From Salibacter halophilus (GTDB lineage: Bacteria > Bacteroidota > Bacteroidia > Flavobacteriales_G > Salibacteraceae), in contig NZ_WACR01000002.1 of assembly GCF_008806325.1 (NCBI RefSeq), positions 186,001-250,000 on the forward strand: a DNA stretch of 64,000 bases, in the 5' to 3' direction. The notes under the pieces are model-generated. The model made no database searches, was not told where the DNA came from, and saw only the letters and a program-made list of their open reading frames with translations. This document shows positions 30,901-47,792 of the stretch, piece by piece. The number at the start of each line of letters is the position of its first letter. Within the stretch, counting starts at the first letter, position 1. The position numbers and the translations under genes were made by a program.

Positions 30901-31827
30901 TCCACCCGTATTCCACGAGTATGTGTAAGGAGCTATACCTCCAGTAGCTGAAGCAGTCGCCTGACCATCTGAATCTCCATTACAATCTATTGCAGAGGAA
31001 ACATTGGCTGATGAAACAAGTGCTGAAGAAGGTTGTGTAATAGTTGCAGAAGCTGTTGCTATACAACTGTTTCCATCTGTAACTGTAACAGTGTAAGTAC
31101 CTGCAGCTAGTGAAGATATAGTATTGGTAGAGGAAGAAGTATTTGAAGTACTTGCACCATTAGACCAAGAATATTGAAAATTGGATGTCCCACTACTCTG
31201 TGTAACAGTTAGTGAACCCGTACTCCCGCCATTACAAGCAACATTCGTTTGAGAAGTTATCGAGGCTGTCATGGTACATGGAGCTGAAGCAGTATTCCAA
31301 ACAAAATTATCTAAGCCATGAGAATCCATATTAGCGTTTGCAGTAATTCTAATAGAATCGACAGCGTCAAAATCACTATCTCCAGATACATCCATCGTAG
31401 TTGAAAGACCTGTATTCGTTTTATTGTATGATGCTCCTGAAACGGGTGCTCCATTTCTGTAACCTGTAATTGTCACATTAAGTGTACAACAGTTAAAGCA
31501 AATAAAATCATTGATAAAATCTAATGAGATTAAATCGAATTCGGTTCCATCAGTAGTAGCAATTGTAGCCGAAGTTACACTTCCTCCTGTAAATAACACG
31601 AAGTTATCGCTGTAACCACAAAAGCTTGAACTAGCCCTATGTTCAAAACCTGGACTGTTAGAGGTAGAAGTAAACCTGAATTCTTGGCCATTGTTGGTTA
31701 TCAAAAAGTTATTAAGATCTTGAGCATTTGTCCAGCCCTGGCTACCAAAACCAATTGTATTTTGTGCTGTGGAACTAAAACAAAAACAAAATATTGACAA
31801 TAGGGTTAAGAGTGCAATTTTTTTCAT
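24979..31827 (-). CDS. Giant T9SS-secreted repeat protein (SprB and HYR-like repeats)
   Basis: A 2282-residue surface or secreted protein. Order: signal peptide (1-22); a unique N-terminal domain (about 23-180) with a FICFNCC cluster; 16 SprB-type repeats of about 76 residues (cores VSCNGASDGGATA, TYSVTITDNNGCFDS); eight near-identical 80-residue HYR-like units (cores ITVYLDNSGSASI, DNCSIDNLSLDV, FTCADTG); one divergent classic HYR unit (ITCPADIEICEG); a PKD/Ig-like module; and a T9SS type A sorting domain (VKLYPNPTRGNVNLQVSG to VYRIVKH). SprB in Flavobacterium johnsoniae is the mobile gliding adhesin, but this protein is smaller and differently built. A role in adhesion is inferred. Confidence 0.93.
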   Translation of the reverse strand: MKKIALLTLLSIFCFCFSSTAQNTIGFGSQGWTNAQDLNNFLITNNGQEFRFTSTSNSPGFEHRASSSFCGYSDNFVLFTGGSVTSATIATTDGTEFDLISLDFINDFICFNCCTLNVTITGYRNGAPVSGASYNKTNTGLSTTMDVSGDSDFDAVDSIRITANANMDSHGLDNFVWNTASAPCTMTASITSQTNVACNGGSTGSLTVTQSSGTSNFQYSWSNGASTSNTSSSTNTISSLAAGTYTVTVTDGNSCIATASATITQPSSALVSSANVSSAIDCNGDSDGQATASATGGIAPYTYSWNTGGTSATQTWLGAGTYSVTVTDQNGCTDSSSTTLTQPNSLVSSANVSSTIDCNGNTNGQVTASATGGTGSYTYSWNTGGTSATETGLGAGTYSVTITDQNGCFDSASTTLSQPASLVASSVVDSNISCNGATDGGATASATGGTMPYTYSWSNSATTASITGVGAGTYSVTITDNNGCFDSASINITEPVSLTAGASVNSNLSCNGGNDGQALASATGGTGSYTYSWNNGATSALNTGLSAGTYSVTITDQNGCFDSASTILTQPTSLVSSASVSSALDCNGDANGQVTASATGGTGSYTYSWNTGGTSATETGLGAGTYSVTITDQNGCFDSASTTLSQPASLVASSVVDSNISCNGATDGGATASATGGTMPYTYSWSNSATTASITGVGAGTYSVTITDNNGCFDSTSLTITEPASLVASSVADSNISCNGASDGGATALATGGTAPYNYMWSNSATTASITGVLAGTYSVTITDNNGCFDSTSLTITEPAMLTAASVVDSNVSCNGASGGGATASATGGTMPYTYSWSNAATTASITGVAAGTYSVTITDNNGCFDSTSLTITESASLVASSIADSNISCNGGSNGGATALATGGTMPYTYSWSNAATTASITGVASGTYSVTITDNNGCFDSTSLTITEPASLVASSVADSNVSCNGANDGGATASATGGTAPYNYMWSNAATTASITGVPAGTYSVTVTDNNGCFDSTSLTITEPASLVASSIADSNVSCNGASDGGATASATGGTMSYTYSWSNAATTASITGVAAGTYSVTITDNNGCFDSTSVTITEPAILAAASVVDSNVSCNGASDGGATASATGGTAPYNYMWSNSATTASITGVSAGTYSVTITDNNGCFDSTSLTITEPASLVASSVADSNVSCNGASDGGATASATGGTAPYNYMWSNAATTASITGVPAGTYSVTVTDNNGCFDSVSLTITEPAMLTAASVVDSNISCNGGSNGGATASATGGTAPYNYMWSNAATTASISGIAAGTYSVTITDDNGCFDSTSVTITEPTALGLTVSVNDSVSCPGGSDGEITSVVTGGTAPYSYLWSNSATTSTVSNLSVGTYVLTVTDGNGCTIVDSVSLEVGDDVNPVVQTQNITVYLDNSGSAPISTTDIDNGSSDNCSIDNLSLDVMSFTCADTGSNTVTLTATDVSGNMSSATATVTVEDTTSPVVATQNITVYLDNTGSASIATTDIDNGSSDNCSIDNLSLDVTSFTCADTGSNTVTLTATDVSGNMSLATATVTVEDTTSPVVQTQNITVYLDNSGSASIATTDIDNGSSDNCSIDNLSLDVTNFTCADTGANTVTLTATDVSGNMSSATATVTVEDTTSPVVATQNVTVYLDNSGSASISTTDIDNGSNDNCSIDNLSLDVMNFTCADTGANTVTLTATDVSGNMSSATATVTVEDTTSPVVAKQNVTVYLDNAGSASIATTDVDNGSNDNCSIDNLSLDVTNFTCADTGSNTVSLTATDVSGNMSSATATVTVEDTTSPVVATQNVTVYLDNSGSASISTTDIDNGSNDNCSIDNLSLDVTSFTCADTGANSVTLTATDVSGNTSSATATVTVEDTTSPVVATQNVTVYLDNAGSASISTTDIDNGSSDNCSIDNLSLDVTNFTCADTGSNTVTLTATDVSGNMSSATATVTVEDTTSPVVQTQNITVYLDNAGTASIATTDIDNGSSDNCSIDTMSLDITTFSCADTGSQNVVLTVVDEKGNTSSNTATVTVLDTIAPVITCPADIEICEGEIQFTDATSTDNCVSTVISTGSIFTGDSLSAGSYQLTFEAVDLSGNTATCATDVTVNPLPMVNLGADTGVGPQHIVSFSTGYPNATNVWSTGETTENISVQVEMDTTIWVSVTDSNSCAATDTVEVTILTGSEEHTFTAEVKLYPNPTRGNVNLQVSGMEENMLYSVLDQTGRELQRGRIVNGQNRIEMSDYANALYFIKLSDKQGEMIKVYRIVKH
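25681..27600 (-). repeat. Eight tandem 240-bp HYR-like coding repeats
   Basis: Eight in-frame units of exactly 240 bp remain in register along the whole block. Some units are nearly identical at DNA level: bases 26341-26400 equal 26821-26880, and 26641-26700 equal 26881-26940. Neighbouring units differ mainly at a few alternating positions (QTQN/ATQN, SGSA/AGSA), which suggests recent conversion or duplication. Confidence 0.9.
27610..31260 (-). repeat. Sixteen tandem SprB-type coding repeats (about 228 bp)
   Basis: Sixteen units with a core period of 228 bp; for example the same string recurs at 28291 and 28975, exactly three periods apart. The promoter-proximal units are the most divergent and the middle units the most alike. 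A two-unit block (the units carrying CNGDANGQ/CNGATDGG) also repeats as a larger segment near 29880-30100 and 30560-30780. Confidence 0.88.
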
Positions 31828-33655: not shown

Positions 33656-34686
33656 TCTTAAAAGTTGGTGAGCTCACAATTCACAGCGACTTACTGGAAG
33701 AATCTATCAGTCAGCTATCAGCTCAGCAGCTTTCAATAATGCCTCAGTGGAAGCAAAACATTTTTGTTTTCCTCAAAAGTTGGTTTGATGAAAAGGATTA
33801 CATCGAAGCGCAAACATCAGGCTCAACAGGAAAACCCAAAACAATAAAACTTTCGAAGGAGAGTATGCGCAATAGCGCAAAGATGACAAATGAATTCTTT
33901 GATTTAGGTAATGGTCAGAACGCATTGTTGTGCATGGATGCGCGTTTTATAGCGGGCAAAATGATGATAGTGAGATCTCTGGCAACCGGAATGAACCTCA
34001 CAATTGTTGAACCTCAATCTGATCTGTCAGATTCACTACAAACAAAGTACGATTTCTCAGCTATGGTTCCTTTACAGGTTAGGGAATCACTTCATGCTCT
34101 GGAATCGGTCAAAACGCTGATTATTGGCGGAGGACCTGTTGATACTGACCTTGACAGTAAACTCCGGGAAATTTCAACAAAATGCTACTCGACTTACGGA
34201 ATGACTGAAACTACGAGTCACGTAGCCATGCGTGCTATAAATGGCTCTGACCGAAGTTCGTGGTACAGAGCAATGCCAGGCGTAAACTTTTCGCTTTCAG
34301 ATAAGAATACTCTTGTAATTGATGCACCTCACCTGAATGTGAAGCGTTTGGAAACAAACGATGTTGTGGAGCTTCAAAACAATTCATTTAAATGGCTGGG
34401 CAGAAGTGATTTTACAGTGAATTCTGGCGGAGTGAAATTACAGCCTGAGTCGATTGAGAAGAAGATAGAAAAATTCATAAATGTCCCGTTTTACCTGACC
34501 GGAACTCCTGATGAAAAGCTGGGAGAAAAGTTGATTATGTATATCGAATCTCAGGAAAGTTCAGCAATAAAAAAAGGGCTTGAAAAAGCTTTTCAAACCC
34601 TTGATCAATATGAAATTCCAAAGGAAGTTTTCTATCGTGAAAGTCTCGAGAGGACAGAATCGGGAAAGATCAAACGAATCGTTTAG
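33652..34686 (+). CDS. menE: o-Succinylbenzoate--CoA ligase
   Basis: A 344-residue acyl-CoA synthetase of the ANL superfamily that activates o-succinylbenzoate with ATP and CoA. AQTSGSTGKPKTIKLS is the P-loop, STYGMTETTSHVA the A5 motif, GRSDFTVNSGGVKLQPESIE the hinge region and SGKIKRIV the C-terminal catalytic-Lys motif. It is shorter than most MenE (about 450 residues) because the N-terminal part is compact, as in many Bacteroidota. It overlaps menC by 4 bp and ends with a 4-bp convergent overlap with the stress-protein gene. Confidence 0.92.
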   Translation: MILKVGELTIHSDLLEESISQLSAQQLSIMPQWKQNIFVFLKSWFDEKDYIEAQTSGSTGKPKTIKLSKESMRNSAKMTNEFFDLGNGQNALLCMDARFIAGKMMIVRSLATGMNLTIVEPQSDLSDSLQTKYDFSAMVPLQVRESLHALESVKTLIIGGGPVDTDLDSKLREISTKCYSTYGMTETTSHVAMRAINGSDRSSWYRAMPGVNFSLSDKNTLVIDAPHLNVKRLETNDVVELQNNSFKWLGRSDFTVNSGGVKLQPESIEKKIEKFINVPFYLTGTPDEKLGEKLIMYIESQESSAIKKGLEKAFQTLDQYEIPKEVFYRESLERTESGKIKRIV

Positions 34687-35507
34687 TGATCTTTCACTGC
34701 CAAAAGAGGAACTTTCGTGTGGTAAGAAATTTCCTTTGATATACTTTTCTTGAACAGTTTATTCCAAAATGTAACTTTACGCGGAACCACAACGAGTAGA
34801 TCAGCATTTACTTCTTCGATAAACTCGTCAATTGCTTCCACAATGTTGTCGTCATGTAAGCTGTGAAATCCAAAATCAACGCCATCTAATGTTTGATTGA
34901 TTTTGAGTCTGTTTTTCTCTTCTTCCAGTGTTTCACCGAGATCACCTGATTTCACAACATGAGTGATATACAAGTGAGCATTGTAATTCTTAGCCAGCGA
35001 TTTTACAGTATCAAAAACGGCATTATCGCTGATGTCCTGTAAATCTGCAGCAAAAACAATTTTCTTTATCGGGCTGAACAAAAACCCTTCAGGTACTGAG
35101 AATACTGGGTATTCAGAATCAGCAATTACTTTTTGAGCATTGCTTCCCAGGAATGTCTTTTTGAGTCCGCTAGCTCCCGTTGTTCCCATCACAACAGCGT
35201 CAACATCATTTTGATTTGACCAGTGAGCTACTACATCATCAACAGAACCGTGTCTCGATTCAATATCAACTGTAATCCCTTTATACTTGTTATTAAGGTA
35301 TTCGAGTTCTTTTTCTAAATCGGCAATACTCTCTTTCTCCAGCATTTCGTCAATAGAAACGAGCATGCCACTAGTACCGGCATTTGGTGTTTCAAAAGAG
35401 TTGATTAATGTATAACGAACACCATCTAAACCAAATAGCTTTACAGCATAATCAAATGCGTTGCGGGCATTTTCAGAAAAATCAGTAGGAACTAGGATAC
35501 TTTTCAT
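34683..35507 (-). CDS. Universal stress protein, two Usp domains
   Basis: A 274-residue tandem Usp protein. The N-terminal domain (1-140) carries the ATP-binding signature GTTGASGLKKTFLGSNAQ (G-2x-G-9x-GS). The C-terminal domain (about 148-274) is degenerate. It is the last of three Usp genes on the minus strand, after a 55-bp gap, downstream of an Fnr-like gene. This grouping usually points to a response to low oxygen or energy stress. It lacks its own recognisable operator. Confidence 0.88.
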   Translation of the reverse strand: MKSILVPTDFSENARNAFDYAVKLFGLDGVRYTLINSFETPNAGTSGMLVSIDEMLEKESIADLEKELEYLNNKYKGITVDIESRHGSVDDVVAHWSNQNDVDAVVMGTTGASGLKKTFLGSNAQKVIADSEYPVFSVPEGFLFSPIKKIVFAADLQDISDNAVFDTVKSLAKNYNAHLYITHVVKSGDLGETLEEEKNRLKINQTLDGVDFGFHSLHDDNIVEAIDEFIEEVNADLLVVVPRKVTFWNKLFKKSISKEISYHTKVPLLAVKDH

Positions 35508-35562
35508 CTTAAATGATTTGTCTTTACGATTGAATTAGGTCGTTTCAAAGATACAAAGAACC

Positions 35563-36345
35563 TTAAATAACAGCAGCTATCGTTGCAATTTTAACGTTGA
35601 GGAAATATTTCTCTATCAATTCTGCATCAGGATTAGATCCTGTTACAACTATAGTATTTTGATCTACATTGAGATAAGTGCGTAATTTATCGGGCTGTTC
35701 GCCAGTGAATGGATGCACAGCAATGCTACTACAATGTGTTTTGAGATAATCAACCATCATTTTTTGCTGCGCCATATGTTTATTCGAATACTGCGTAACG
35801 TAATCGAGTAAACTCACCTCCCACCTCATGCAATAGTCATCAAAAACCTGGCAGAATTGTTTTATCGCGTACAATGACGATGGTGTTCCATCGTCAATGA
35901 GGATAATCCTGTGAATTTTCCTCAGTGAATTTGGCAGGATCAGAACCGGCACATTTCCCTTGCATGCTTTATCTGAACAGTTTTGAGCAAAGCGCTTCAC
36001 TGTTTCATTTTGAGCGATAACTAAATCGGCAAATTGACAGTATTCCGTAAGGCAAAAATCCTGATGATGAATTTTATCGATCGAGAAATTGGATTTTTCC
36101 AATTCATTTTGATCGATGATATGTTTAATCAACGATTCATCAACTGAATTCTGCGGCCATCTACCTGATTTGATAAGGGGTAGAATGTTTATCGGTTCTG
36201 ACCGTGAACCGGCTGATAGCTCGTTATTGCTGAAAACAATTTTAACAGTGTGCTCTGAGTCCCTGAAGTACTCGAGAGCAAAATTGAGAGCTTCAAGGGA
36301 CTCAAGCGTTGAGTCGAGCAACACTATAATTTGTTTAGCAGCCAT
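35563..36345 (-). CDS. Degenerate universal stress protein
   Basis: A 260-residue protein with the two-domain size and N-terminus (KQIIVLLDSTLESLEALNFALEYF) of Usp proteins, but without the Gly-rich ATP-binding motif in either half. It is encoded between two better-conserved Usp genes with a 9-bp gap to the upstream one. It may be a non-nucleotide-binding partner that forms a hetero-oligomer with its neighbours, which is inference. One dispersed 10-mer lies at 36194. Confidence 0.72.
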   Translation of the reverse strand: MAAKQIIVLLDSTLESLEALNFALEYFRDSEHTVKIVFSNNELSAGSRSEPINILPLIKSGRWPQNSVDESLIKHIIDQNELEKSNFSIDKIHHQDFCLTEYCQFADLVIAQNETVKRFAQNCSDKACKGNVPVLILPNSLRKIHRIILIDDGTPSSLYAIKQFCQVFDDYCMRWEVSLLDYVTQYSNKHMAQQKMMVDYLKTHCSSIAVHPFTGEQPDKLRTYLNVDQNTIVVTGSNPDAELIEKYFLNVKIATIAAVI

Positions 36346-36354
36346 GTGTTTTAG

Positions 36355-37164
36355 TTATTCTGGAAATAGTATCCTGTTATTAGATTTCTTTTCTGGTAAT
36401 TTCACACTCAGAACCGGAATTTGGGACTCGCTGGCAACCGTTTCAGTAAGACTACCGAGCAATACTTGCGACAATCCTTTTCGGCCATGAGTTGTCATAG
36501 CGATTAAATCAGCATTTACTTCCTGTGCAAATTTGTTGATTCCGGCATCTTTTGATTCTTCGTTGTAAATGTTGATCGTATAATTTTTAAGATCGTTGCG
36601 ATCAGCAAAATCTGTCATCAACTTGCGCGTGTAGGTTGTGGTTTCAAAGTTCTTTGGTGTAATGACTTTGAGCAGATGAAGTTTGGCATCATTGAACTCA
36701 GCAAACTCCTGGATTTTTGGAAATACGGGTCTAATTTCAGTGTAGAAACTGGATGCGAAGACGATATTCTCAATTTTAAAATGCTCAATTTTATTCTTGA
36801 TCACGAGAACAGGTCTCTGTGCAAGTCGCACAACACGCTCTGTATTAGAACCAACAATTCTGCTGGAAAGTTTTTCACCTCTTGCACCCATCACAATGAT
36901 ATCAACATCTATATCACGGGCAGTTTTCACGATAGCTCCTTCGAGCTTTTCCTGAAGGAATACTGACTTTACATTTATTCCTTTGAGCATATCACTGTTC
37001 AGCAACTCGTCCATCTTTTTTTGCGACTCTTCTGCTTTGTCCTTTTTAGGAGCAACATGCAGAATATGAAGCGTTGAATTTGTTGTACGAGCTAACTGAG
37101 CGCCAATATCAACAGCGTTAGTTGCAAGTTCTGAAAAGTCTGTTGGTATTAAAATATTTTTCAT
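36355..37164 (-). CDS. Universal stress protein, two Usp domains
   Basis: A 269-residue tandem Usp protein. It begins KNILIPTDFSELATNAVDIGAQLA. The first domain has VMGARGEKLSSRIVGSNTE and the second MTTHGRKGLSQVLLGSLTE, so both domains keep near-complete ATP-binding loops. It is the first gene of the three-Usp cluster. Two TGAT-N4-ATCA palindromes sit 46 and 68 bp upstream, between this gene and the Fnr-like gene. Confidence 0.9.
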   Translation of the reverse strand: MKNILIPTDFSELATNAVDIGAQLARTTNSTLHILHVAPKKDKAEESQKKMDELLNSDMLKGINVKSVFLQEKLEGAIVKTARDIDVDIIVMGARGEKLSSRIVGSNTERVVRLAQRPVLVIKNKIEHFKIENIVFASSFYTEIRPVFPKIQEFAEFNDAKLHLLKVITPKNFETTTYTRKLMTDFADRNDLKNYTINIYNEESKDAGINKFAQEVNADLIAMTTHGRKGLSQVLLGSLTETVASESQIPVLSVKLPEKKSNNRILFPE

Positions 37165-37269: not shown

Positions 37270-37980
37270 TTAAATATTACCTACTCTAATTAATTTTTCA
37301 GGTTCTAAGACCTTGATTTTACGCCCTTTGGTTTCGATGAGTTTCTCATCTTTAAAGTCGTGTAAAAGTCTGATGATGGTTTCAGTTGCTGTTCCCACAA
37401 TATTCGCCAGGTCTTCGCGAGTAAGATTGATCTCAACTTCCGTATCATCTCCTGCAGCCGGGTCAACATCGTAAGTGTCTTTCAACATTAATAAGGTAAC
37501 GGCTAATCGCTCACGAACCGATTTTTGAGCTAAGCTTGTAATGTTTTGCGTCATAGCGCCCAACTCGTGACAAGCTGCCTGTAGAAGTTGCTGACCAAAA
37601 GAAGGCACTCTCGTGAGCATTCCTAAAAACTCCGATTTTGGGATGAAACAAACTTTAGTGTTCTCGAGTGTTTCTCCTGAAACCGGATACAATTCATCGC
37701 TCACCAGTGCTTTATAACCCAGCAAATCACCGCCAGTTGCAATTTTTATTATTTGATCTTTACCGTCATCACCAGTTCTGTAAACCTTGATCTTTCCCTG
37801 ATTTACACAGTAAACTCCCAGCGGACGTGTTCCTTCGTGAAAGAGAATTTGACCTTTTTTATAGAACGCACAAGATTTGTGATAATTGATGTTTTCTATT
37901 TCCTCATCTGGAAGCCCTTTAAAGAGTGAGTCATTTTTCACCCTGCACTCCTCGCAACCTACATAAACTTGCTTACGCAT
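37270..37980 (-). CDS. Crp/Fnr-family transcriptional regulator, FNR-like
   Basis: A 236-residue regulator. N-terminal Cys9, Cys12 and Cys37 (GCEEC and KSC) lie before a cyclic-nucleotide-binding fold (about 25-140). The helix-turn-helix is at about 190-212 (TREDLANIVGTATETIIRLL); its recognition helix keeps the Glu and Arg that FNR and CRP use to read a TGA half-site. The Cys set suggests an oxygen- or NO-sensing iron-sulphur cluster, but spacing differs from E. coli FNR. It sits 105 bp upstream of the Usp cluster and probably regulates it. Confidence 0.88.
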   Translation of the reverse strand: MRKQVYVGCEECRVKNDSLFKGLPDEEIENINYHKSCAFYKKGQILFHEGTRPLGVYCVNQGKIKVYRTGDDGKDQIIKIATGGDLLGYKALVSDELYPVSGETLENTKVCFIPKSEFLGMLTRVPSFGQQLLQAACHELGAMTQNITSLAQKSVRERLAVTLLMLKDTYDVDPAAGDDTEVEINLTREDLANIVGTATETIIRLLHDFKDEKLIETKGRKIKVLEPEKLIRVGNI

Positions 37981-38231
37981 GTGTTACTTTTGATTTCTTT
38001 AATGGTTGGTAAATATACAAACTTAGGTACGAATAAAAGATGCATAGAGGTTTAAGCAGGCTTTAATATTTTCCTATTTTTGGAATTAATCCCGAAAAGA
38101 AATTAAATTTATTCATGCTAAAACAAAAACTCAATCGGTCAAACCATTAGTTTACAAAAGATTAACCAATTTTCACTCGACTTCATACACTATCTGCACA
38201 ATTTCTGTAAAACTCAGCAAAATAAAATTTG

Positions 38232-40712
38232 ATGAATAACTTTTTGGGTAAGCTCAATAAAATACTCACACTATTCTTCTTCGCTAGCATCCCGGCTTTT
38301 ATATATGGTCAGGAAGCAACTCCTGTTGAAGAAGTTGATGGTTTGTTCTACACTGTTCAAATTGGAACATTTTCTTCCCCTGAAACTCCCGAATCAATTG
38401 TTGAGTTAAGCGATGTCTATTTTGAAAAAATTGATGATACCAGATACCGCTATTTGGTTGGTGTGTTTCGCGAGATGGAATTTGCCAGAACAAAACAGGA
38501 AGAGCTCATCAATGAAGGCTTTAAAGGTGCATTTGTCATCGCTTATGAAAATGGTGACAGGATAAGTTTACGTGTTTTGAGAGAAAGAATGGTTCAGGAA
38601 GACGAGAGCTTACAGGATACCAAACTCCCCGTTTTCAAAGAAACACCTACTGAAACCCAAAATGACCCAGACGCAAAATTCAACTTCGAAATAACAAATG
38701 GTAATGTTCTCTCAGAAGCCACACGTGAGGTGTCAGATCTATTTGAGAATCAAATTCTCGATTACCGTGAAATGAGACCTGATGTTGACCCTTTAACAGC
38801 TGAAGACCTGTTCACCATTAAGTTTGATACAATCAGTCAGGTTGAGCTAGACAGCGCATTATTGAGAGAAGAAATCGAAAGACTACGCAACGACTGGGGG
38901 CTCGATTTCAACACCTGGTACATTTACAACTTTGAGCCAGGCCTCGGTCCGGTTGAAGACGTATTTTACAGGCAACGGGCAAACTTCACGCTCGAAATGA
39001 ACCTACTCAAAGGCGGGCTCTACAACAACCGAAACAAAGCAAAACAACTCGAAAGAGAAATTGAACTCATGGATCTCCGTCACAAAGAAGAAAGTGAACG
39101 AGATCGGTATGAAGACCTTTACAACTACACAATTTACCTTTTCAACCTCGAAAAACTCAACTTCATTGACGAACGTGTAAAACTACTAAACCGTAAAAAG
39201 CAAATCCTGGAAATGCTCTACACGAGCAAGGATAAAACCTGGGAAGATGTACTCGAGCTTCGTGGGCAAATAACACGCGCTCAAAACATGTACAATAAAT
39301 GGCAGCAATACAACACCATTCTCAAGGACAAAGTCATGGAAGATTTCCCTGTGGAAAAAGGCCTTACAGCATCAAAACTACCCGTTCTTCAGCTTAGTCC
39401 AGATTCCCTTTTCAGTCAGAGCCAAAATGCCAACACCGACACATTGCGTGAACAAATGCAAAGACTGAGAAGAGAAATCATTGAAATTGACCAAAACAGA
39501 TGGAAAGACGTTGGATTGAGGCCATTCTTGCGTTACACCCTCATTGGAGATAACGGGAATGCTGTGGATCGTTCCTTTTCATCCGGTGGAATCAGCCTCG
39601 ATATTCCAATTAACTGGAAGGGCCGCAATTCCCTAACTCAGGCACAAATCAATGCCATTACAAATGTCGACTACGTCAAAGAGAAAAATGACAATCACGA
39701 GTTGTTGAACTACTATTATGAATACGAATACAAACTAGAACAACTCATTACACTACAATACAACTATGGAAAAATAGAAGAACGCCTACGCAAACAAATC
39801 ATACTGTATCAATTCAAAGATCCAAAATTTAGTCCATTAGTAGCCGTACAGTACCTCGATGAAATGCTTTCCACACGTATTGAAATGATAGACACCAAAC
39901 AAATGCTCTATCTCAAGATCATCAAAATAATGGAATACATGCAAAGCTACTCCCCACTTCAGTTTTCTGATGTACTGGATCTGAACGAAAAAACAAGGAA
40001 GTACAAGAACAAACGCGACATGTACTGTTGGTCCGATTTTTTCTACAATCAAAACAACCTATTCCTCATACATTATCTAAAGGTCAATGAAGTTCGCAAC
40101 TTTATCCTTTCGGTCGGAACCGAGATAAACCGCAACAAAGTAGAAGACTTCGTGCAACTGGCAAACCGCTATGATGTTAACATGCACGGTATGATTGGTA
40201 ATAACGGCCTTGCACTCGATGTTCAACCCGATGCTATTTTAGAGTATGTAGAGCGTTTTCATCAAATGGGTTTTAAGGGAATTCATTTTGATATTGAGCC
40301 ACAAACATTCCCAGACTGGGACGGAAACAAAGAAATGTACTTAAATAATTTAAAAGAAACTTTTAGAATTGCACGAAAGCTATGCAACGATCGCGGCATG
40401 AAATTAAGTGCATCTATACCTACCTATTACCCTGAAGAGCAACTACCTGAAATTTACAGCTTGCTCGACAAAGTATATTTAATGGCCTATGAGCGGCCTG
40501 ACATAGAGTTCATTGCTCGTAAAACAAGTGAAGAGTTCGCGCTAAATAAAGAGAAAACTGTTCTTTCTTTGCGCACTAAAGATTTTAATAATCGTTTAGT
40601 CATGGAAAAATTTATTGAAGCATTAGATGCAGAAATACAATTTGAAGAAATGGCAATTCACGACTTGGGCACATTGTTTGAGATGGACTACGCAACCTCA
40701 TTTGAAGAATGA
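38232..40712 (+). CDS. SPOR / TolC-like / glycosidase-like fusion protein
   Basis: An 826-residue exported protein from the ATG at 38232 (a TTG lies one codon upstream). The signal peptide ends near AFIYGQ. Residues about 38-112 resemble a SPOR domain (FYTVQIGTF to AFVIAY). Residues about 150-590 form a TolC-like outer-membrane factor: long coiled coils and two strand-rich segments (PFLRYTLIGDNG, GGISLDIPINW). Residues about 600-826 look like a glycoside-hydrolase barrel, with GIHFDIEP (Asp687, Glu689), KLSASIPTYYP and VYLMAYE as in GH18-like enzymes. It would span the outer membrane and trim the exported glycan. The fusion is unusual. First gene of a four-gene operon. Confidence 0.7.
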   Translation: MNNFLGKLNKILTLFFFASIPAFIYGQEATPVEEVDGLFYTVQIGTFSSPETPESIVELSDVYFEKIDDTRYRYLVGVFREMEFARTKQEELINEGFKGAFVIAYENGDRISLRVLRERMVQEDESLQDTKLPVFKETPTETQNDPDAKFNFEITNGNVLSEATREVSDLFENQILDYREMRPDVDPLTAEDLFTIKFDTISQVELDSALLREEIERLRNDWGLDFNTWYIYNFEPGLGPVEDVFYRQRANFTLEMNLLKGGLYNNRNKAKQLEREIELMDLRHKEESERDRYEDLYNYTIYLFNLEKLNFIDERVKLLNRKKQILEMLYTSKDKTWEDVLELRGQITRAQNMYNKWQQYNTILKDKVMEDFPVEKGLTASKLPVLQLSPDSLFSQSQNANTDTLREQMQRLRREIIEIDQNRWKDVGLRPFLRYTLIGDNGNAVDRSFSSGGISLDIPINWKGRNSLTQAQINAITNVDYVKEKNDNHELLNYYYEYEYKLEQLITLQYNYGKIEERLRKQIILYQFKDPKFSPLVAVQYLDEMLSTRIEMIDTKQMLYLKIIKIMEYMQSYSPLQFSDVLDLNEKTRKYKNKRDMYCWSDFFYNQNNLFLIHYLKVNEVRNFILSVGTEINRNKVEDFVQLANRYDVNMHGMIGNNGLALDVQPDAILEYVERFHQMGFKGIHFDIEPQTFPDWDGNKEMYLNNLKETFRIARKLCNDRGMKLSASIPTYYPEEQLPEIYSLLDKVYLMAYERPDIEFIARKTSEEFALNKEKTVLSLRTKDFNNRLVMEKFIEALDAEIQFEEMAIHDLGTLFEMDYATSFEE

Positions 40713-41800
40713 AAAAATTTCATTTTAAAACACAAGAAAGCATTATTAAGGGGATCGAGGAAAAGCCGGTTAAAAAAGGCTTTAACTGGGATCGCGTGAT
40801 CTACCTCGTTACACTCTTAATTATTGTAGTGAGCTTCGGTTCATACTTCATCAGCAAGAGTATTAAAGTTACTGCTGAGTCTGAAGTAATAATGGACAAG
40901 TTCAACGTAACTTTTACTAACGATGTTATCGTTACCGAATTTTACGTTGAAGAAGGCGATTCAGTAAGAAAAGGAGATAGTTTGTTTAACTATATCCTCT
41001 CAAGAGAAGCTGATGATGATAATATGTTCATGTCTAACAAAAACGATCGAGGATACTCTAAAGAAACTGAGAACTATCTTGTTAGGGAAAAACTTCAAAC
41101 TGAACGTGATCTTCAAAAAGCCAGAATGGAAATCAAATCTCTTGAACGAGAAGTTGAAGCATTAAAGAAGGAAATCGATAGAACTGAGAAGAAAGTATTC
41201 CTGGATGTAGAGCCTCCATCAGCTATTACTAGTCTCAAGAAAGATATTAGTGACGCTGAAATGGAAATGAGTCAGCAAGAAGACGAAATTGATTACTTGA
41301 AAAACTACCTGGCCATAACCAATAAAAAACTAGAAAACCTCAGGTCTCAAATTCCGCAGGTAAATATAGGGGAGTTACAGGGTATTTTAAGTGGCGAAGT
41401 TAATCGACCTGAAGAATACACTTATATCTCTCCCAAATCGGGAATGATCTCTCAGGTTTACGCAAGAAGTGATGAAGTTCGCTACAAGTCAACTCTTGTT
41501 TTGGATATTATAGAATATCAGGGATTGCACATCCTCGCCTACTTTAGACAGGAAGATCTCAAGTACATTGATGCAGGAGATAAAGTGGAAGTAACATTCC
41601 CTGATGGTACAAAAAGTGCCGGTATCATTGATAAGTTGTATCCTAAAACAGCTACAATGCCGGATAGATTGTACGACTCGGGAAGTAAAGTTGAACGAAG
41701 AATTAGAGCGGTTGTTGTACCACTAAATGTTGAAGAAGCATCTAAATGGTATGGCTTTTACAAGATCAACGTGATCGTTTCTAAGTCTAAATACTTTTAG
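40709..41800 (+). CDS. Membrane-fusion protein (HlyD-like), exopolysaccharide type
   Basis: A 363-residue periplasmic adaptor. One transmembrane helix (about 29-49) follows a cytoplasmic N-terminus. A split biotinyl-lipoyl module (VIVTEFYVEEGDSVRKGDSLF, about 73-95) is interrupted by coiled coils (about 112-215) and followed by a beta-barrel region (SPKSGMISQVYARSDEV and IDAGDKVEVTFPDGT). It overlaps the outer-membrane gene by 4 bp and is 3 bp from the next gene. It should bridge the inner-membrane synthase and the TolC-like exporter, comparable to the periplasmic part of Alg44; that role is inferred from context. Confidence 0.85.
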   Translation: MKKFHFKTQESIIKGIEEKPVKKGFNWDRVIYLVTLLIIVVSFGSYFISKSIKVTAESEVIMDKFNVTFTNDVIVTEFYVEEGDSVRKGDSLFNYILSREADDDNMFMSNKNDRGYSKETENYLVREKLQTERDLQKARMEIKSLEREVEALKKEIDRTEKKVFLDVEPPSAITSLKKDISDAEMEMSQQEDEIDYLKNYLAITNKKLENLRSQIPQVNIGELQGILSGEVNRPEEYTYISPKSGMISQVYARSDEVRYKSTLVLDIIEYQGLHILAYFRQEDLKYIDAGDKVEVTFPDGTKSAGIIDKLYPKTATMPDRLYDSGSKVERRIRAVVVPLNVEEASKWYGFYKINVIVSKSKYF

Positions 41801-41803
41801 TAA

Positions 41804-43210
41804 ATGGATCAGGTACAAGACAATGTTACCATAAAGCGCATTGAAAACGACTACGATAAGGAGATCGTTTTAGTAAGTGATTACGAGAATTTCGATATAA
41901 AGAAAGTCCCGTTATACGATGCGCTTATTCTGGACTACACAGAAAGAGACAAGTGTTTAAAGGCTCTTCGTGATGTGAGGGGTTCAGGTATTGAAAGTAT
42001 TTATCTCATCCCTCTTTTCGTACTTAGCATTGCTGAGATCAAGAACCAGGAAATTGTTGAATTGGCTGACGGTATCATCAACAATATTCAAACTGATACA
42101 ATTAACACGTTTGTTGAAAACGTAAAAAGCAAGAGAAGACAACTCAAGCCATTTAATATGAATGCTGAGATTAATAAGAATCTCATTAAAATGTTGCGTT
42201 TTTCATTCAGCCGTGATAAAGAATTAAAACCCGTTAAAGATCGCCACCACATTATTGGTTTTAAATATCCTATTTTGAGTTTGAGCCTTGGTGATGATAA
42301 TGCCAGGATGCAAATTCAAACTGTTCACGAAGCAGTTGAAAAGGAGTTTTTTAAAGCTGAATACGTAGATCGCCTTCACCTTTGTGGTAATTGTAGTTCA
42401 GGGTTTTTGAATTACAAAGAACTCGATCCTGAAACGAATTCATCTCACCTTGAGACTGAAAACCTCATCCACCACTTTACCTGTGCTTACATAGGTCCGG
42501 AAAGTGACTTTGTTAGAGGCGATCAATATATTTGTCCCAAGTGTAACAAAACGCTGAGACACATCGGTGTGGATTACGACAAACCGAGTGTGATGTACCA
42601 CGTTGTTGGATCTGACCGATACTTTCAGGAACCTGTTATGAAGGCTGAATGTATGAGTTGCGGACGCCAAAACGAGGTTGAAGGATTGCAACAATACGAT
42701 GTTTACAATCTTGCTTTAACTGAGGAAGGAAAAGAAGAGGCAATACAACCTAAAGGCTCGCAAAGCGTTCAGGATGTTGTTTACAGTGGCTTCATTACTT
42801 ACAGCACATTTGGAACCTTCCTGCGTTACGAAATTGAGCGAGTAAAAACATCAACAAGAAACAGTTCTATCGGACTCATCAGGCTGAATATAACATCCAA
42901 AATGGAGTCTGAGTTAGGAACTCGTTACGGTAAAATCATTGAGGAAATTTCATCGTTTATTTCGAATAACACAGACAGTTCTTGTATCTTGTCTAGATCG
43001 ATGCATTCATTTTTCATACTTTTCCCAGACACACCGCTTGAGAAATGCCAAATGAAAATTGAAAAAATTAAATCGGCTGTTATTGAACTGTTGAAAAATA
43101 ACGTGAAAGACCAAAATATTAATGTTCACTCTACTGTTCGTGAAATCACTCCAACAAGTGAGTATCAAACTGTTTTAAACGACCTTAGAGCAAGCATCCT
43201 AAACGACTAG
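41804..43210 (+). CDS. TackOD1-like zinc-binding protein with degenerate GGDEF domain
   Basis: A 468-residue cytoplasmic protein. The N-terminus (1-140) looks like a degenerate receiver domain. The middle (about 150-295) matches the TackOD1 output-domain pattern: CGNC (194/197), HHFTCAYIGPESDF (Cys227), YICPKC (244/247), LRHIGVDYDKPS and CMSC (283/286), probably two zinc sites. The C-terminus (about 325-468) resembles a GGDEF domain whose active-site loop reads SRSMHSFFIL instead of RxGGDEF, so cyclase activity is unlikely. It may be a c-di-GMP or protein-binding switch for the synthase. Encoded 3 bp from both neighbours. Confidence 0.75.
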   Translation: MDQVQDNVTIKRIENDYDKEIVLVSDYENFDIKKVPLYDALILDYTERDKCLKALRDVRGSGIESIYLIPLFVLSIAEIKNQEIVELADGIINNIQTDTINTFVENVKSKRRQLKPFNMNAEINKNLIKMLRFSFSRDKELKPVKDRHHIIGFKYPILSLSLGDDNARMQIQTVHEAVEKEFFKAEYVDRLHLCGNCSSGFLNYKELDPETNSSHLETENLIHHFTCAYIGPESDFVRGDQYICPKCNKTLRHIGVDYDKPSVMYHVVGSDRYFQEPVMKAECMSCGRQNEVEGLQQYDVYNLALTEEGKEEAIQPKGSQSVQDVVYSGFITYSTFGTFLRYEIERVKTSTRNSSIGLIRLNITSKMESELGTRYGKIIEEISSFISNNTDSSCILSRSMHSFFILFPDTPLEKCQMKIEKIKSAVIELLKNNVKDQNINVHSTVREITPTSEYQTVLNDLRASILND

Positions 43211-43213
43211 TAC

Positions 43214-44524
43214 ATGTTTGTCGATTACTGGGAGTACTTCGTAGATTACTGGTTTGAAAAAAGTTACCTCGAAATCATCAGAACATTTTGGTACTTTTTC
43301 ATCCTGGAACTACCCCGTTTCTTACTTTTCGACTTCATCATAGTTATTTCGGTAATTCTCAACAGGCAAAACCTGAGAAGACGCTATCAAAAAGCCCGTA
43401 AACTGCTATGGGCTGAAATGCCGCTCATCTCAGTAATTGTCCCCGGTAAAAATGAGGGAAAACACCTCTATAAATTAGTCAATTCATTAAAGGAACAAAC
43501 CTACTTCAACTACGAACTCATTGTTGTCGATGACGGATCAGACGATGAAACACCACTCATTGGGCGTGATCTCGAAAAGAACGGATACATCGATAAGTTT
43601 GTACGAAATGATGTGAGGGGCGGAAAAGCGAGTGCAGCAAACCTGGCATTGCGCTATACAAACGGAAAATATATCGTTCACCTCGATGCTGATACCTCAT
43701 TTGATCGCGATTCAATTGAAAACATACTACTCCCCTTTTACTTTGGTGAAAACATTGGAGCTGTAGGAGGCAACATTAAAGTCCGCAACGCTGAAGATAG
43801 CTTTTGCTCAACCTTACAGGCTATCGAATACCTGAATACGATTTCCATGGGTAGAATTGTATCTACTGAATTGGGTATTTACCGAATTATATCAGGTGCT
43901 TTTGGCGCTTTCAGAACCGATGTAATCAAGCGTTTAGGTGGCTGGGACATCGGTCCGGGTCTTGATGGTGATATTACCGTGAAATTCAGAAAACTGGGTT
44001 ACAAAATTCACTTTGAGCCAAAAGCTGTAGGTCTCACAAATGCACCTACCAACTTCCCCACTTTGAGCAAGCAAAGATTACGTTGGTCAAAATCACTGAT
44101 TCGTTTTAGAATTCGCAAACACAGCGATATTTATATTCCCGGAAAAAATTTCAACCTCCTCAATTTCATTTCCTTTATCGAAAACGTTACTTATGATGTA
44201 ATTCTGAACTTCCTGTGGTGGTTTTACATCCTGGACATCGTCATCAACAATATGCGCATGCTTGCGATCATTATTCCGCTCAAAGTATTCATGTACATGA
44301 TCATGGATTTTGTACAGTTTACACTTATCCTCATGATCAGCGAACGCTGGAAAAAAGAACTAAAACTGTACCTGTATCTTCCGGCAATGGTATTCTACAA
44401 CAGTTATTACATGCGTTTCATAAGGACAATGGCCTACTTCAAGGAAATCTTTTGGTTCAGTTCTTACAAAGATCCGTGGAACCCTGCCAAAACATCTATC
44501 AAAGCCTTTAGAAACAAGCTTTAG
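43214..44524 (+). CDS. Processive-type family 2 glycosyltransferase (polysaccharide synthase)
   Basis: A 436-residue inner-membrane GT2. One N-terminal transmembrane helix (about 25-48), a GT-A domain (about 70-310) and about three C-terminal helices give the layout of PgaC/HasA-type synthases. Motifs: VVDDGSDDE (Asp106), HLDADTSF (Asp158/Asp160), GLDGD (Asp251; usually GED-like in relatives) and QRLRW (287-291), which marks processive enzymes. It would polymerise and translocate a glycan to the MFP/TolC-like exporter encoded upstream. No PilZ domain is present. Its stop overlaps the convergent TonB-receptor gene by 4 bp. Confidence 0.88.
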   Translation: MFVDYWEYFVDYWFEKSYLEIIRTFWYFFILELPRFLLFDFIIVISVILNRQNLRRRYQKARKLLWAEMPLISVIVPGKNEGKHLYKLVNSLKEQTYFNYELIVVDDGSDDETPLIGRDLEKNGYIDKFVRNDVRGGKASAANLALRYTNGKYIVHLDADTSFDRDSIENILLPFYFGENIGAVGGNIKVRNAEDSFCSTLQAIEYLNTISMGRIVSTELGIYRIISGAFGAFRTDVIKRLGGWDIGPGLDGDITVKFRKLGYKIHFEPKAVGLTNAPTNFPTLSKQRLRWSKSLIRFRIRKHSDIYIPGKNFNLLNFISFIENVTYDVILNFLWWFYILDIVINNMRMLAIIIPLKVFMYMIMDFVQFTLILMISERWKKELKLYLYLPAMVFYNSYYMRFIRTMAYFKEIFWFSSYKDPWNPAKTSIKAFRNKL

Positions 44525-46854
44525 TTTGTTTTCACTTCAAATGGAACGATAAGCCTAACGATCAAATTTCTACCAGGCTCCGGCAGGTTTAGCAATCTGT
44601 ATCGGTTAAGATGGCTCAAATAACGTTGGTCAAATAGGTTTTGGACTTCAAACCGCAGTGTAAAAGGAAAATCACCACCATTTTCAAAACCGGCCCATGC
44701 AGATGTAACATGATAACCTGGCGTAGCTTTTTCATTGCGATCAACACGGTTCTGATCAAAAACTATTTGATGTCTAATTCCAATTTTCATTTCACGGTCA
44801 GAGCCGAGCTGAGTAGCGTACTCAACTTCATGACTAAATCTGAATGGCGGAGTAAATGGGAGAGGCAAATAAGTATCGAGGTTGTAATTGTGAACATAAG
44901 CAGACTGGTGCCTGAATGTCAAGTGCTCATTTAGCCTGTATTGGATGGACAACTCGTAACCTGTGTAAATAGCATCGTGCTGAGTGTACTCCCACAATTG
45001 ATCACCTTCAGGCAGCCTGGAAAAACGATTCGATGGTCGCAGGTAAATGAAATCTTCAAAATAGTTAAAGTAAGTTGACGCATTGATTTTCCATCTTTGA
45101 AGATTAGATTCAAAAGAAAGATCAAACTGGTAGCCGTGTTCGCTGGATAAATCTGAGCTTCCCTTTTCATGTCTAAAAGTTCCGTGGTGTACTCCATCGC
45201 TGGCTAACTCGGCAGCTGTAGGGAATCTAAAACTCTTTCCTATGTTCAGCTTCAGTTCATTTTTAGAATTAATATCGTACCGCAAACCTACGCTCCCAGA
45301 CCAACTGGAAAATTGCTCATCGAGCGCTTCATTTTTACTAAAATAGATTGTGTCACGTTCAGAGTTCAAGATCAACCTTTCATGAGCTGTTGTATTGACA
45401 CTTCCTATATCATAGCGCAATCCACCGGTAAAAAACAAACTCTCATTAACTTTTCGTTTTGCCAGTGAAAACAGACCAAAACGCTGTGTTCTGTGCTCGG
45501 GGATTAAAAATTCGAACCCATCAATTTTATTCTGCTGCCATTCAGTGCTCAACCCCGTTATAGATGTCCATTCGCCTATTGATGTTTCCAGTTCAAGGCG
45601 AGAAGTAAAAGTAACGAGATCCAGGTTGAGTGCATTTGAATCAAGAATCGTTGTAGCCCCATGAGAATGAGGTTCTGAAAACTCAGACCTCACGTTTTGT
45701 TGTACTCCTGTTTTGACACGTAAAATCGATTCACCTAAATAATAGTTACCCTGAAAAGTAGCCATATCGTGCTGAATCTCTTGCCTCGGTAAATCGATAT
45801 CGCGACTGTCTCCATCAGATTGTAAATCGTAAGCTCTTGGAATTCCGATTGAGCCGGGAAACATTCCTATATCCATATTGTAAGATGATACATTAATACG
45901 TGTTGTACCCCAATCGCGCTGCAATCCTATTTCACCTCCGTAATGAAGCTCATTCCCCGCTGTGTTTTTTAATTCACTTTCTGCAATTGGAAGTATGTAT
46001 CGGTTGTAGTTGAATGAATCAGCCGGAACCTGATAGTCTCCAAACGTTTTGTAAGTAACTCTACCTCTAACAAATACACCATTATTGTTGTATGCCAGCT
46101 TAGAACTAGCTCCAAAAGTATTGTTGTTAGATTTATAAAATGTTTGCGCTTTACCCTGAATTACATCTTCACGAGGAACCGGAGCCGGTAAAATATTGAT
46201 AACACCTCCAAGTCCGTCAGATCCATAGAGTAACGAGCTGGGGCCTTTTACAACCTCTACTCTTTCAACTCCAAACTGATCGATTTCGAGTCCGTGATCA
46301 GCGCCCCATTGCTGACCGTTTTGCTTGACTCCATTATTGTTCACCAAAACACGGTTGAAGCTGAGTCCGCGAATAACCGGTTTGCTAACTCCCACTCCGG
46401 TATTTAGAGCATTTATTCCCGGAATCTTTTCTAGTGTTTCTACAAAATTGTTTCCGCTGTTTTGCTCAAAAAAATCAGCCGTTAACTCTTTGTTGTCAAG
46501 AGCATCGTGATCAGTAGCTTTATGTCCCTCAATAATGATTTCATCAATATTTTGGACAGAATGAGTCAGTGAAATTTCGATGTGCTTATTACTCCTTACA
46601 TCAATGGTATCAACGTAATCATGAAATCCCAGGCTTGTAATCTTAAAAACATGTGTTCCTTCAGGAACTTTAATAGTGAACCGGCCATTGTTATCAGTTG
46701 CTGATAACATAAACGTATCTAACAATTGCACATAGGCATCTGGCACAGCGTGCCCGTGTTCGTCAACTACAGTGCCGGAGAGCCTGAATGTTGTTTGGCT
46801 CTGACCGTAAACGAAAAAGGTTAAAAGAAGAAAAGTTAAGGCTATTTTACGCAC
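44521..46854 (-). CDS. TonB-dependent receptor, probably zinc-regulated
   Basis: A 777-residue outer-membrane receptor. After the signal peptide comes a carboxypeptidase-regulatory-like beta-sandwich (about 22-105), then a plug (about 115-230; NKELTADFFEQNSGNNFVETLEKIPGIN and RGLSFNRVLVNNNGVKQNGQQWGADHGLEI) and a 22-strand barrel ending in aromatic-rich FDQRYLSHLNRYRLLNLPEPGRNL. A His-bearing loop (EPHSHGATT) could bind metal. It overlaps the Fur/Zur-like gene by 8 bp and is therefore in the same operon. Zinc as substrate is inferred from that regulator and the His-rich lipoprotein. Confidence 0.9.
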   Translation of the reverse strand: MRKIALTFLLLTFFVYGQSQTTFRLSGTVVDEHGHAVPDAYVQLLDTFMLSATDNNGRFTIKVPEGTHVFKITSLGFHDYVDTIDVRSNKHIEISLTHSVQNIDEIIIEGHKATDHDALDNKELTADFFEQNSGNNFVETLEKIPGINALNTGVGVSKPVIRGLSFNRVLVNNNGVKQNGQQWGADHGLEIDQFGVERVEVVKGPSSLLYGSDGLGGVINILPAPVPREDVIQGKAQTFYKSNNNTFGASSKLAYNNNGVFVRGRVTYKTFGDYQVPADSFNYNRYILPIAESELKNTAGNELHYGGEIGLQRDWGTTRINVSSYNMDIGMFPGSIGIPRAYDLQSDGDSRDIDLPRQEIQHDMATFQGNYYLGESILRVKTGVQQNVRSEFSEPHSHGATTILDSNALNLDLVTFTSRLELETSIGEWTSITGLSTEWQQNKIDGFEFLIPEHRTQRFGLFSLAKRKVNESLFFTGGLRYDIGSVNTTAHERLILNSERDTIYFSKNEALDEQFSSWSGSVGLRYDINSKNELKLNIGKSFRFPTAAELASDGVHHGTFRHEKGSSDLSSEHGYQFDLSFESNLQRWKINASTYFNYFEDFIYLRPSNRFSRLPEGDQLWEYTQHDAIYTGYELSIQYRLNEHLTFRHQSAYVHNYNLDTYLPLPFTPPFRFSHEVEYATQLGSDREMKIGIRHQIVFDQNRVDRNEKATPGYHVTSAWAGFENGGDFPFTLRFEVQNLFDQRYLSHLNRYRLLNLPEPGRNLIVRLIVPFEVKTN

Positions 46855-47260
46855 GCTGACAAGTCTTACAAATGCCGTTCGCTACCATGTAAACATCATT
46901 GATCATGAGGTCCTTTGGTAAATTCATTTCAGGAATTGGAAGGTCGAGACAATAACTGTTTCCGCATTTTGTGCAGTGGAAATGAACATGATCATCCTCA
47001 TGACTGGAAACATCACAATGGTCAGAACACAGCGAAAAACGTACCGTTCCTGTTTCATCGTACACTTTGTGCAAAAGTCCTTTTTCCTCAAAAGAATTGA
47101 GCGTTCTGTAAAGTGTAACACGATCAAAATGTTCTCCCAGCTTACTCTCTAACTCAGCATGAGAAAGGGCTTTACCGGCACTAAGGTACTCTTTCAAAAC
47201 CTCAGTTCGGGTAGCTGTTTTGCGTAAATTGTGTTTCTTTAAAAGTTCAGTTGCTTCCAT
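46847..47260 (-). CDS. Fur-family regulator, Zur-like
   Basis: A 137-residue Fur-family repressor. The winged helix (about 1-80; LRKTATRTEVLKEYL and FDRVTLYRTLNSFEEKGLLHKV) precedes the dimerisation domain with a structural zinc site (HFHCTKCGNSYCL and GICKTCQ) and a regulatory His/Asp cluster (SDHCDVSSHEDDHVH). The promoter region holds five TTGCA words and one 7-1-7 palindrome. Position ahead of a TonB receptor and opposite a His-rich lipoprotein favours zinc over iron as the signal, although the protein alone does not settle this. Confidence 0.88.
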   Translation of the reverse strand: MEATELLKKHNLRKTATRTEVLKEYLSAGKALSHAELESKLGEHFDRVTLYRTLNSFEEKGLLHKVYDETGTVRFSLCSDHCDVSSHEDDHVHFHCTKCGNSYCLDLPIPEMNLPKDLMINDVYMVANGICKTCQRA

Positions 47261-47304
47261 ATAATGAAACTTTGTTGCATTTACTTTTGCAATTTAGTTG
47301 CATT

Positions 47305-47319
47305 TGCAATAGTATTGCA
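47305..47319. promoter_or_regulatory. Zur/Fur-type 7-1-7 operator palindrome
   Basis: TGCAATAGTATTGCA is a perfect 7-1-7 palindrome, the geometry of Fur and Zur boxes. It lies 45-59 bp before the regulator start (47260) and 27-41 bp before the lipoprotein start (47346), so one site can control both directions. TTGCA words also start at 47275, 47287, 47298, 47304 and 47315. Confidence 0.7.
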
Positions 47320-47345
47320 TTTACAAATGTAAAACGAATTTTGTT

Positions 47346-47792
47346 ATGAAAAAGGTTTCACTATTTATGATGGCCATTAGTTTGGCATTCGTCAGTTGCA
47401 ACAAAGACGATGATGACGATAACAATCAAAACACAGACACGATAAAACCAGTTGTGACTGTGATGAGTCCGTCAGGGCATTCAGAATTTGCTCCCGGAGA
47501 CACTATTCACTTTGAAGGTGAAGCTGTAGACGACAAAGCTCTTTCAGAAATGAAAGTTGACATTCACTGGGCAGGTGATGGTCACGGTCATGGTGGAAAA
47601 AGAGCATCAGTTGCAGAGAAATGGGATGAGGAGTTTATTTTCGAATTATCTGGTCGTGAGTATCATGTTCACGAGCACCTTACAATTCCGGCCAATGCTG
47701 ATACCGGAATGCATCACCTCATTGTAACAGCTCTTGATAAAGCAGGAAACCAGTCAGAGTTTGTTGAAGTAGACTTTCATGTTGAAAAATAA
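47346..47792 (+). CDS. His-rich lipoprotein (DUF4625-like)
   Basis: A 148-residue lipoprotein (lipobox FVSC, Cys18) with an acidic linker of five Asp and a beta-sandwich domain of the DUF4625 type (IKPVVTVMSPSGHSEFAPGDTIHFEGEAVDD at the start). It has 11 histidines, including DGHGHGG and YHVHEH, which is strongly suggestive of zinc binding. It is divergent from the Zur-like gene and shares its operator region. It may pass metal to the receptor or buffer it at the cell surface; this is inference. Confidence 0.8.
   Translation: MKKVSLFMMAISLAFVSCNKDDDDDNNQNTDTIKPVVTVMSPSGHSEFAPGDTIHFEGEAVDDKALSEMKVDIHWAGDGHGHGGKRASVAEKWDEEFIFELSGREYHVHEHLTIPANADTGMHHLIVTALDKAGNQSEFVEVDFHVEK

Follow-up and report, generated by a model that had tools for sequence, protein, structure and literature searches.

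A conserved four-gene operon of Salibacter halophilus, probably for exopolysaccharide synthesis and export through an HlyD-TolC route

What would be made by four tightly coupled genes that encode a glycosyltransferase, a periplasmic adaptor, an outer-membrane channel and a TackOD1 protein, and how would the product leave the cell? The question is raised by an operon of Salibacter halophilus, found in a 64,000-nucleotide stretch of DNA (the window; C2:186001-250000 of a 3.12-Mb genome). The four co-directional genes, here called P1 to P4, lie at 38232-44524 on the + strand (Table 1). A preliminary description, made from the sequence alone, had read them as a self-contained exopolysaccharide operon, and the close coupling it reported was confirmed from the open reading frames (ORFs) and the sequence: P1 and P2 overlap by 4 bp (ATGA), and gaps of 3 bp separate both P2 from P3 and P3 from P4. 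An in-frame TTG at 38229 is a possible alternative start for P1. We consider it probable that the operon is a synthase-dependent exopolysaccharide system, in which an N-acetylhexosamine polymer is exported from a family 2 glycosyltransferase (GT2) via HlyD and TolC proteins, trimmed by a domain resembling glycoside hydrolase family 18 (GH18), gated by P3 and deacetylated outside the cell.

Conservation of the cassette

A scan of named genomes for homologous loci returned 60 loci. The order P1-P2-P3-P4 and the common strand are kept in nearly all loci whose contig covers them in full, down to identities of 23-30%, and the gaps within these cassettes are mostly between -14 and +30 bp. The hosts comprise Flavobacteriales and other Bacteroidota, Balneolaceae (Gracilimonas, Fodinibius, Rhodohalobacter), Aquificota (Hydrogenothermaceae), Desulfurellales and a Nitrospirae metagenome-assembled genome (MAG). 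In the Nitrospirae MAG, tblastn matched P3 between P2 and P4, where an antisense ORF had masked it in gene calling. Because the arrangement is repeated across several phyla, it is far beyond chance.

The preliminary description would have been refuted by homologues that never occur together, and the result was the opposite, with both in 12 of 12 genomes. Among 395 Bacteroidota genomes, P3 was present in 12 and P1 in the identical 12 (Fisher 4e-23), to which TackOD1 above its cut-off was also confined. Within the relatives of the window's genome, the nearest named of which are Flavobacteriales MAGs, the cassette was found in 10 of 60, and its distribution is thus patchy. Judging from these sequence comparisons, we conclude that the four genes are inherited as one conserved functional unit, and the cross-phylum order agrees with the earlier grouping of polymerase, adaptor, outer-membrane channel and control protein.

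The four proteins

P4 is a GT2 by Pfam (Glycos_transf_2, 99.7 bits), with the motifs DDGSDD (residues 106-111), DAD (158-160), GLDGD (249-253, a GEDxxLT-type site) and QRLRW (287-291), the last as previously read. It has an N-terminal membrane span and further C-terminal spans. Its best NCBIfam model was PgaC_IcaA, at 164.1 and 163.8 bits, which does not reach the curated cut-off of 422.3, and its profile matched chondroitin and hyaluronan synthases in the PDB. Pfam found no PilZ domain in P4, nor is there space for one past the last membrane span. The assignment of P2 as an HlyD-like adaptor also held, since HlyD_D23 (30.2 bits) and HlyD_3 (26.8 bits) are both above cut-off; the protein has a single N-terminal membrane span, a coiled coil and a barrel-sandwich.

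The HlyD and TolC families serve chiefly in protein and drug export. In keeping with this usual role, and with the membership of dolichol-phosphate-type enzymes in GT2, P4 might make a short lipid- or protein-linked glycan while P1 and P2 export a peptide or small molecule, like the tripartite pumps of the type I or MFS kind. We think this very unlikely. The operon has no ABC transporter, a feature of type I secretion, and in the ~60 loci the conserved neighbours of the cassette include no ABC exporter, no RND or MFS pump and no conserved substrate gene. Furthermore, QRLRW and the C-terminal spans of P4 are typical of processive synthases, and the GH18-like domain and the deacetylase-like protein described below indicate a polysaccharide.

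The AlphaFold (AF2) model of P1, built on a 39-sequence alignment (mean predicted local distance difference test, pLDDT, 83.7; predicted template modelling score, pTM, 0.65), has three modules: a SPOR-like part, a TolC fold and a GH18-like barrel. The central module matches TolC, OprM and CusC (Foldseek 7ng9, E 2.3e-11; VIA Z 19.0 over 372 residues, root-mean-square deviation (rmsd) 5.6). From sequence it is recognised weakly: the Pfam OEP family is sub-threshold in the window's P1 and was detected in 20 of the 39 homologues, at best with 1.2e-9. The TolC-like outer-membrane fusion of the preliminary description is therefore borne out by the model, which adds the barrel as the fusion partner.

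This C-terminal barrel resembles GH18 chitinases and chitinase-like proteins (VIA Z 18.7-20.8 over 212-230 residues, with an rmsd of 2.6-3.5), and PgaB (4f9j) was among the Foldseek matches of P1. The likeness came from the fold search; Pfam GH18 had no match in the window's P1 and matched 2 of 39 homologues, and a sequence search of the C-terminus against the PDB gave no match. By DSSP on the model, D687-x-E689 closes strand beta4 and M751-x-Y753 lies on beta6, just where GH18 enzymes carry their catalytic DxE and MxY, and these four residues are invariant across the 39 homologues. Compared with the GH18 signature (DxxDxDxE on beta4, MxYD on beta6), the fold matches and the motif residues partly deviate. 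Because the first Asp is a His and MxYD reads MxYE, we regard catalytic activity as likely but not certain.

Both chain ends of TolC face the periplasm, and we therefore place the GH18-like domain of P1 there. Consistent with this predicted location, the GH18-like part in Desulfurellales and a related MAG is encoded by a gene of its own directly after P4, and its product seems to have a signal peptide.

The N-terminal SPOR assignment is sub-threshold (12.1 bits versus a cut-off of 21), and in the 39-homologue alignment this part is confined to the window's P1 and its four nearest rows. In two other P1 homologues (L041:5219-7876 and L048:805-3447), an N-terminal YCF48/BNR-type repeat domain replaces it. 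The presence of a SPOR-like domain in the window's clade would fit a polymer that stays attached to the envelope, as a peptidoglycan- or outer-membrane-bound glycan, rather than forming a free matrix; so would the role in cell-cell aggregation and three-dimensional biofilm of the mxd genes, which are relatives by gene description (PMC3691769). Nevertheless, most P1 homologues lack the SPOR-like part, and the TolC channel and accessory proteins exported by the type IX secretion system (T9SS) point beyond the outer membrane. We give an attached polymer the least credence of the readings considered.

P3 was modelled with a mean pLDDT of 86.7 and a pTM of 0.64. It comprises a receiver-like domain (residues 10-113), TackOD1 (123-303) and a degenerate GGDEF domain (322-468), so that the earlier reading as a TackOD1/degenerate-GGDEF protein stands with a receiver-like N-terminus added. 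TackOD1 (PF18551) scores 166.9 bits against a cut-off of 32, and its Cys/His pairs are invariant among the homologues. The GGDEF domain is a sub-threshold match in Pfam; its fold is clear in the model (Z ~17, rmsd 2-3, ~143 residues), whose best structural match is the response regulator PleD (E 7.7e-8, VIA Z 18.2). None of 32 P3 homologues has the GG[DE]EF active site, which reads MHSFF in the window, and the window's clade has lost the inhibitory I-site (RxxD), which part of the other homologues retain. From these residues, we read the GGDEF domain as catalytically dead. The receiver-like domain is degenerate in Bacteroidota; in four Balneolaceae homologues the receiver looks canonical and the degenerate module is a small separate gene. 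TackOD1 was initially reported from archaeal response regulators, where it is an output domain, and is found also in some bacteria; its function has been called obscure (PMC5847659), and the cassette gives it a concrete biological setting.

Accessory genes and the nature of the polymer

In ~7 homologous loci, P4 is directly followed by the gene of a deacetylase-like protein that bears a T9SS tail. The family has a GATase-like N-domain and invariant THDxD, HSxGH, RxG and LIHP motifs, and its profile matched a T9SS tail and, weakly, a GATase-like domain in the PDB, and nothing else. A GATase-like part followed by an HDxD/HxxxH deacetylase recalls Agd3 of carbohydrate esterase family CE18 (PMC7229062), although an assignment to CE4 or CE18 is not made here. 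The window's genome carries a full-length member in trans (L102:8549-10624, - strand; 39% identity, E 6.8e-146). This protein was found in 5 of 10 cassette-bearing relatives and 0 of 50 others (p 4.6e-5), and across the phylum sample in 3 of 12 cassette genomes and 1 of 383 others (p 8.5e-5), both values ignoring shared descent. With this statistically tied gene and the sugar-nucleotide supply encoded elsewhere, the first reading of the operon as self-contained goes too far.

A second cassette type, mainly from Balneolaceae, has a TolC protein without GH18; its additional genes encode a kinase/regulator set and a TviB-like UDP-GlcNAc dehydrogenase (TviB score 453-469 bits). One member, L088, lacks both additions, and both cassette types occur on one Rhodohalobacter contig (L084, L085). 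A Rhodobacteraceae relative carries galE.

We infer a secreted glycan as the product of the P1-P4 system, and likewise infer its substrate and regulation. The polymer is probably an N-acetylhexosamine chain, because a GT2/HlyD/TolC set without a pump is combined with a glycosidase-type domain on the channel, a PgaC-like synthase and a linked deacetylase-like protein. In the mechanism we propose, P4 would polymerise the chain and extrude it via its own membrane spans. P2 would carry it over the periplasm and dock on a trimeric P1, which would take it out of the cell. The GH18-like domain at the periplasmic end of P1 might trim or clear chains, as PgaB, PelA, BcsZ and AlgL do elsewhere. P3, by analogy with PelD, may act on the cytoplasmic side to gate P4, serving as a receptor of a nucleotide or phospho-signal without catalysis of its own, and the T9SS-exported deacetylase-like protein would partly deacetylate the polymer outside the cell.

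Several points weigh against this reading. The genomes compared are not independent, and the deacetylase-like protein is missing from half of the relatives that bear the cassette. With H685 in place of the first Asp of DxDxE and MxYE for MxYD, the barrel of P1 could bind and not cut. The donor sugar is not fixed by the GT2 class of P4, and the dehydrogenase variant and the galE-bearing relative suggest that the polymer may differ between clades.

Some of these same observations fit an exopolysaccharide of another kind, a beta-glucan or an (amino)uronic polymer. The GH18-like domain would then guide the chain or serve as a binding module. Such a product would have precedent in the rhizobial GT2 and HlyD pair BgsBA, which makes beta-glucans (PMC9495663), and in the GT2 and HlyD proteins proposed for cyanobacterial cellulose (PMC12430437); the UDP-GlcNAc dehydrogenase, galE and the His in the P1 motif are all compatible with it. 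However, the catalytic Asp, Glu and Tyr positions of GH18 are invariant in P1, PgaC/IcaA is closest to P4, the deacetylase-like protein occurs together with the cassette that bears GH18, and the variant that bears the dehydrogenase is the one without a GH18 domain. We regard a beta-glucan or uronic product as unlikely, and prefer the N-acetylhexosamine polymer.

Known systems and genomic setting

A 2020 survey recognised five synthase-dependent exopolysaccharide systems, of which the Gram-negative forms typically use a TPR domain joined to a pore in the outer membrane for export (PMC7112194). The preliminary description had found no match to the cellulose, alginate, Pel or poly-N-acetylglucosamine (PNAG) gene sets, and the defining features tested do fail in the window. 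For cellulose (bcs), P4 has no PilZ and its partner is of the HlyD type, not BcsB; for alginate, P2 is an HlyD protein without an Alg44-type PilZ and the outer-membrane part is TolC, not AlgK/E. Like Pel, with its PelD, the system has a control protein in the cytoplasm whose GGDEF is degenerate, but its polymerase is a GT2, not the GT4 PelF, there is no PelG-like exporter, and P3 has TackOD1 where PelD is GAF-GGDEF. PNAG (pgaABCD) has the synthase nearest to P4, and its hydrolase and deacetylase functions are both represented. In contrast to PNAG, the window uses TolC/HlyD and not a TPR-barrel porin, the hydrolase is fused to the channel, the deacetylase is in trans and T9SS-exported, and no PgaD was found. 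Neither a PgaB-type deacetylase plus GH153 protein nor a PgaA TPR-barrel is in the operon, and none of the four proteins has a deacetylase domain.

Other systems come closer. BgsBA, for rhizobial mixed-linkage glucan, likewise has, within a single operon, a GT2 and a partner that bears an HlyD domain (PMC9495663), but BgsA binds cyclic di-GMP (c-di-GMP) via its own C-terminus (PMC5567048), and no TackOD1, TolC or GH18 gene is reported in that operon. The cyanobacterial XcsA-XcsB-TolC route for cellulose export, proposed by Maeda 2018, lacks experimental proof, in part because its genes are scattered (reviewed in PMC12430437). It consists of a GT2, an HlyD-like adaptor and a TolC-like channel, a tripartite set that is found in the window's operon too, and has a glycosidase, to which the GH18-like domain would correspond. 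Unlike P4, which lacks the PilZ (or PCR) feature of cellulose synthases, XcsA carries PilZ. The genes of T. vulcanus are scattered, the system has no TackOD1 protein, and its glycosidase, an endoglucanase, is separate from TolC.

On proteobacterial plasmids, a TackOD1(-GGDEF-like) gene is followed by a GT2 gene and, where the record allows, an HlyD gene (Table 1); an Aeromonas plasmid has TackOD1 then GT2, and its record stops within the GT2. This order is that of mxdA-mxdB-mxdC in Shewanella oneidensis, which we compared by gene description only. The mxdABCD locus encodes MxdA (unknown, affects c-di-GMP), the GT2 MxdB, the efflux-pump-like MxdC and the hypothetical MxdD, and mxd mutants form no aggregates and no three-dimensional biofilm (PMC3691769). 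Descriptions of mxd mention neither a TolC nor a GH18 part, whereas in the window both are fused within the operon. The earlier contrast with the four systems above holds; by gene description, mxdABCD is a known biofilm locus with a like core.

The components and general logic are known; for their combination we found no description in the openly licensed literature searched. It is quite possible, if somewhat short of probable, that the cassette represents an undescribed class of synthase-dependent system, in which a GT2 feeds an HlyD-TolC conduit with a trimming glycosidase on the channel, TackOD1 is the dedicated control domain and a T9SS deacetylase finishes the polymer. In contrast to the scattered cyanobacterial genes, all parts of an HlyD-TolC polysaccharide route are in one conserved operon, and its presence in cultured genera (Brumimicrobium, Gracilimonas, Fodinibius, Rhodohalobacter) makes the idea directly testable.

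Table 1. Features of the operon in the window, and related loci elsewhere
Feature	Position or locus	Strand	Description and basis
P1	38232..40712	+	826 aa; predicted TolC-type outer-membrane channel, SPOR-like N-terminus, GH18-like C-terminus; ORF call, AF2, Foldseek/VIA
P1 SPOR-like domain, aa 38-111	38343..38564	+	sub-threshold Pfam; compact beta-alpha module in model
P1 TolC fold, aa 192-572	38805..39947	+	Foldseek, VIA
P1 GH18-like (beta/alpha)8 domain, aa 592-826	40005..40709	+	VIA, DSSP strands, conservation
P2	40709..41800	+	363 aa; HlyD-like periplasmic adaptor; ORF call, Pfam, membrane span
P3	41804..43210	+	putative cytoplasmic control protein, receiver-like + TackOD1 + degenerate GGDEF; Pfam, AF2
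P3 TackOD1 zinc-ribbon-type domain	42170..42712	+	Pfam PF18551
P4	43214..44524	+	436 aa; membrane GT2; Pfam, NCBIfam, motifs
CotH/lamin-tail loci	L030, L031, L037, L038, L042, L043, L047, L048, L052-L054, L057, L062, L070		
Second cassette type	L084, L086, L087		PAS kinase, two receivers, LytTR regulator, TolC without GH18, HlyD, DUF4114 lipoprotein (not L084), TviB-like UDP-GlcNAc dehydrogenase, P3, P4
TackOD1/GT2/HlyD trio			Plesiomonas, Rhodobacteraceae, Phyllobacterium, Aminobacter, Photobacterium; Palleronia similar

In 14 loci P4 is directly followed by a gene for a CotH/lamin-tail protein, and the two that were scanned (L031 and L043) have CotH kinase, lamin-tail and chitobiase-C domains and a T9SS tail. 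CotH is absent from the window's genome, and we therefore rejected this protein as part of the window's system.

Scans for sigma-70 promoters and terminators gave no excess over shuffles, and no promoter is claimed. A gene for a Crp/Fnr-type regulator (37270-37980, - strand) is divergent from the cassette and adjoins universal-stress-protein genes (34683-37164). This neighbour of the cassette is conserved in the window and in the four complete loci closest to it, and oxygen or redox control of the cassette is possible. On the other side, convergent genes at 44521-47792 encode a TonB-dependent receptor, a Fur-family regulator and a small metal-binding-looking lipoprotein, which looks like an ordinary metal-uptake set. 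Farther upstream, an ORF of 2282 residues lies at 24979-31827 on the - strand.

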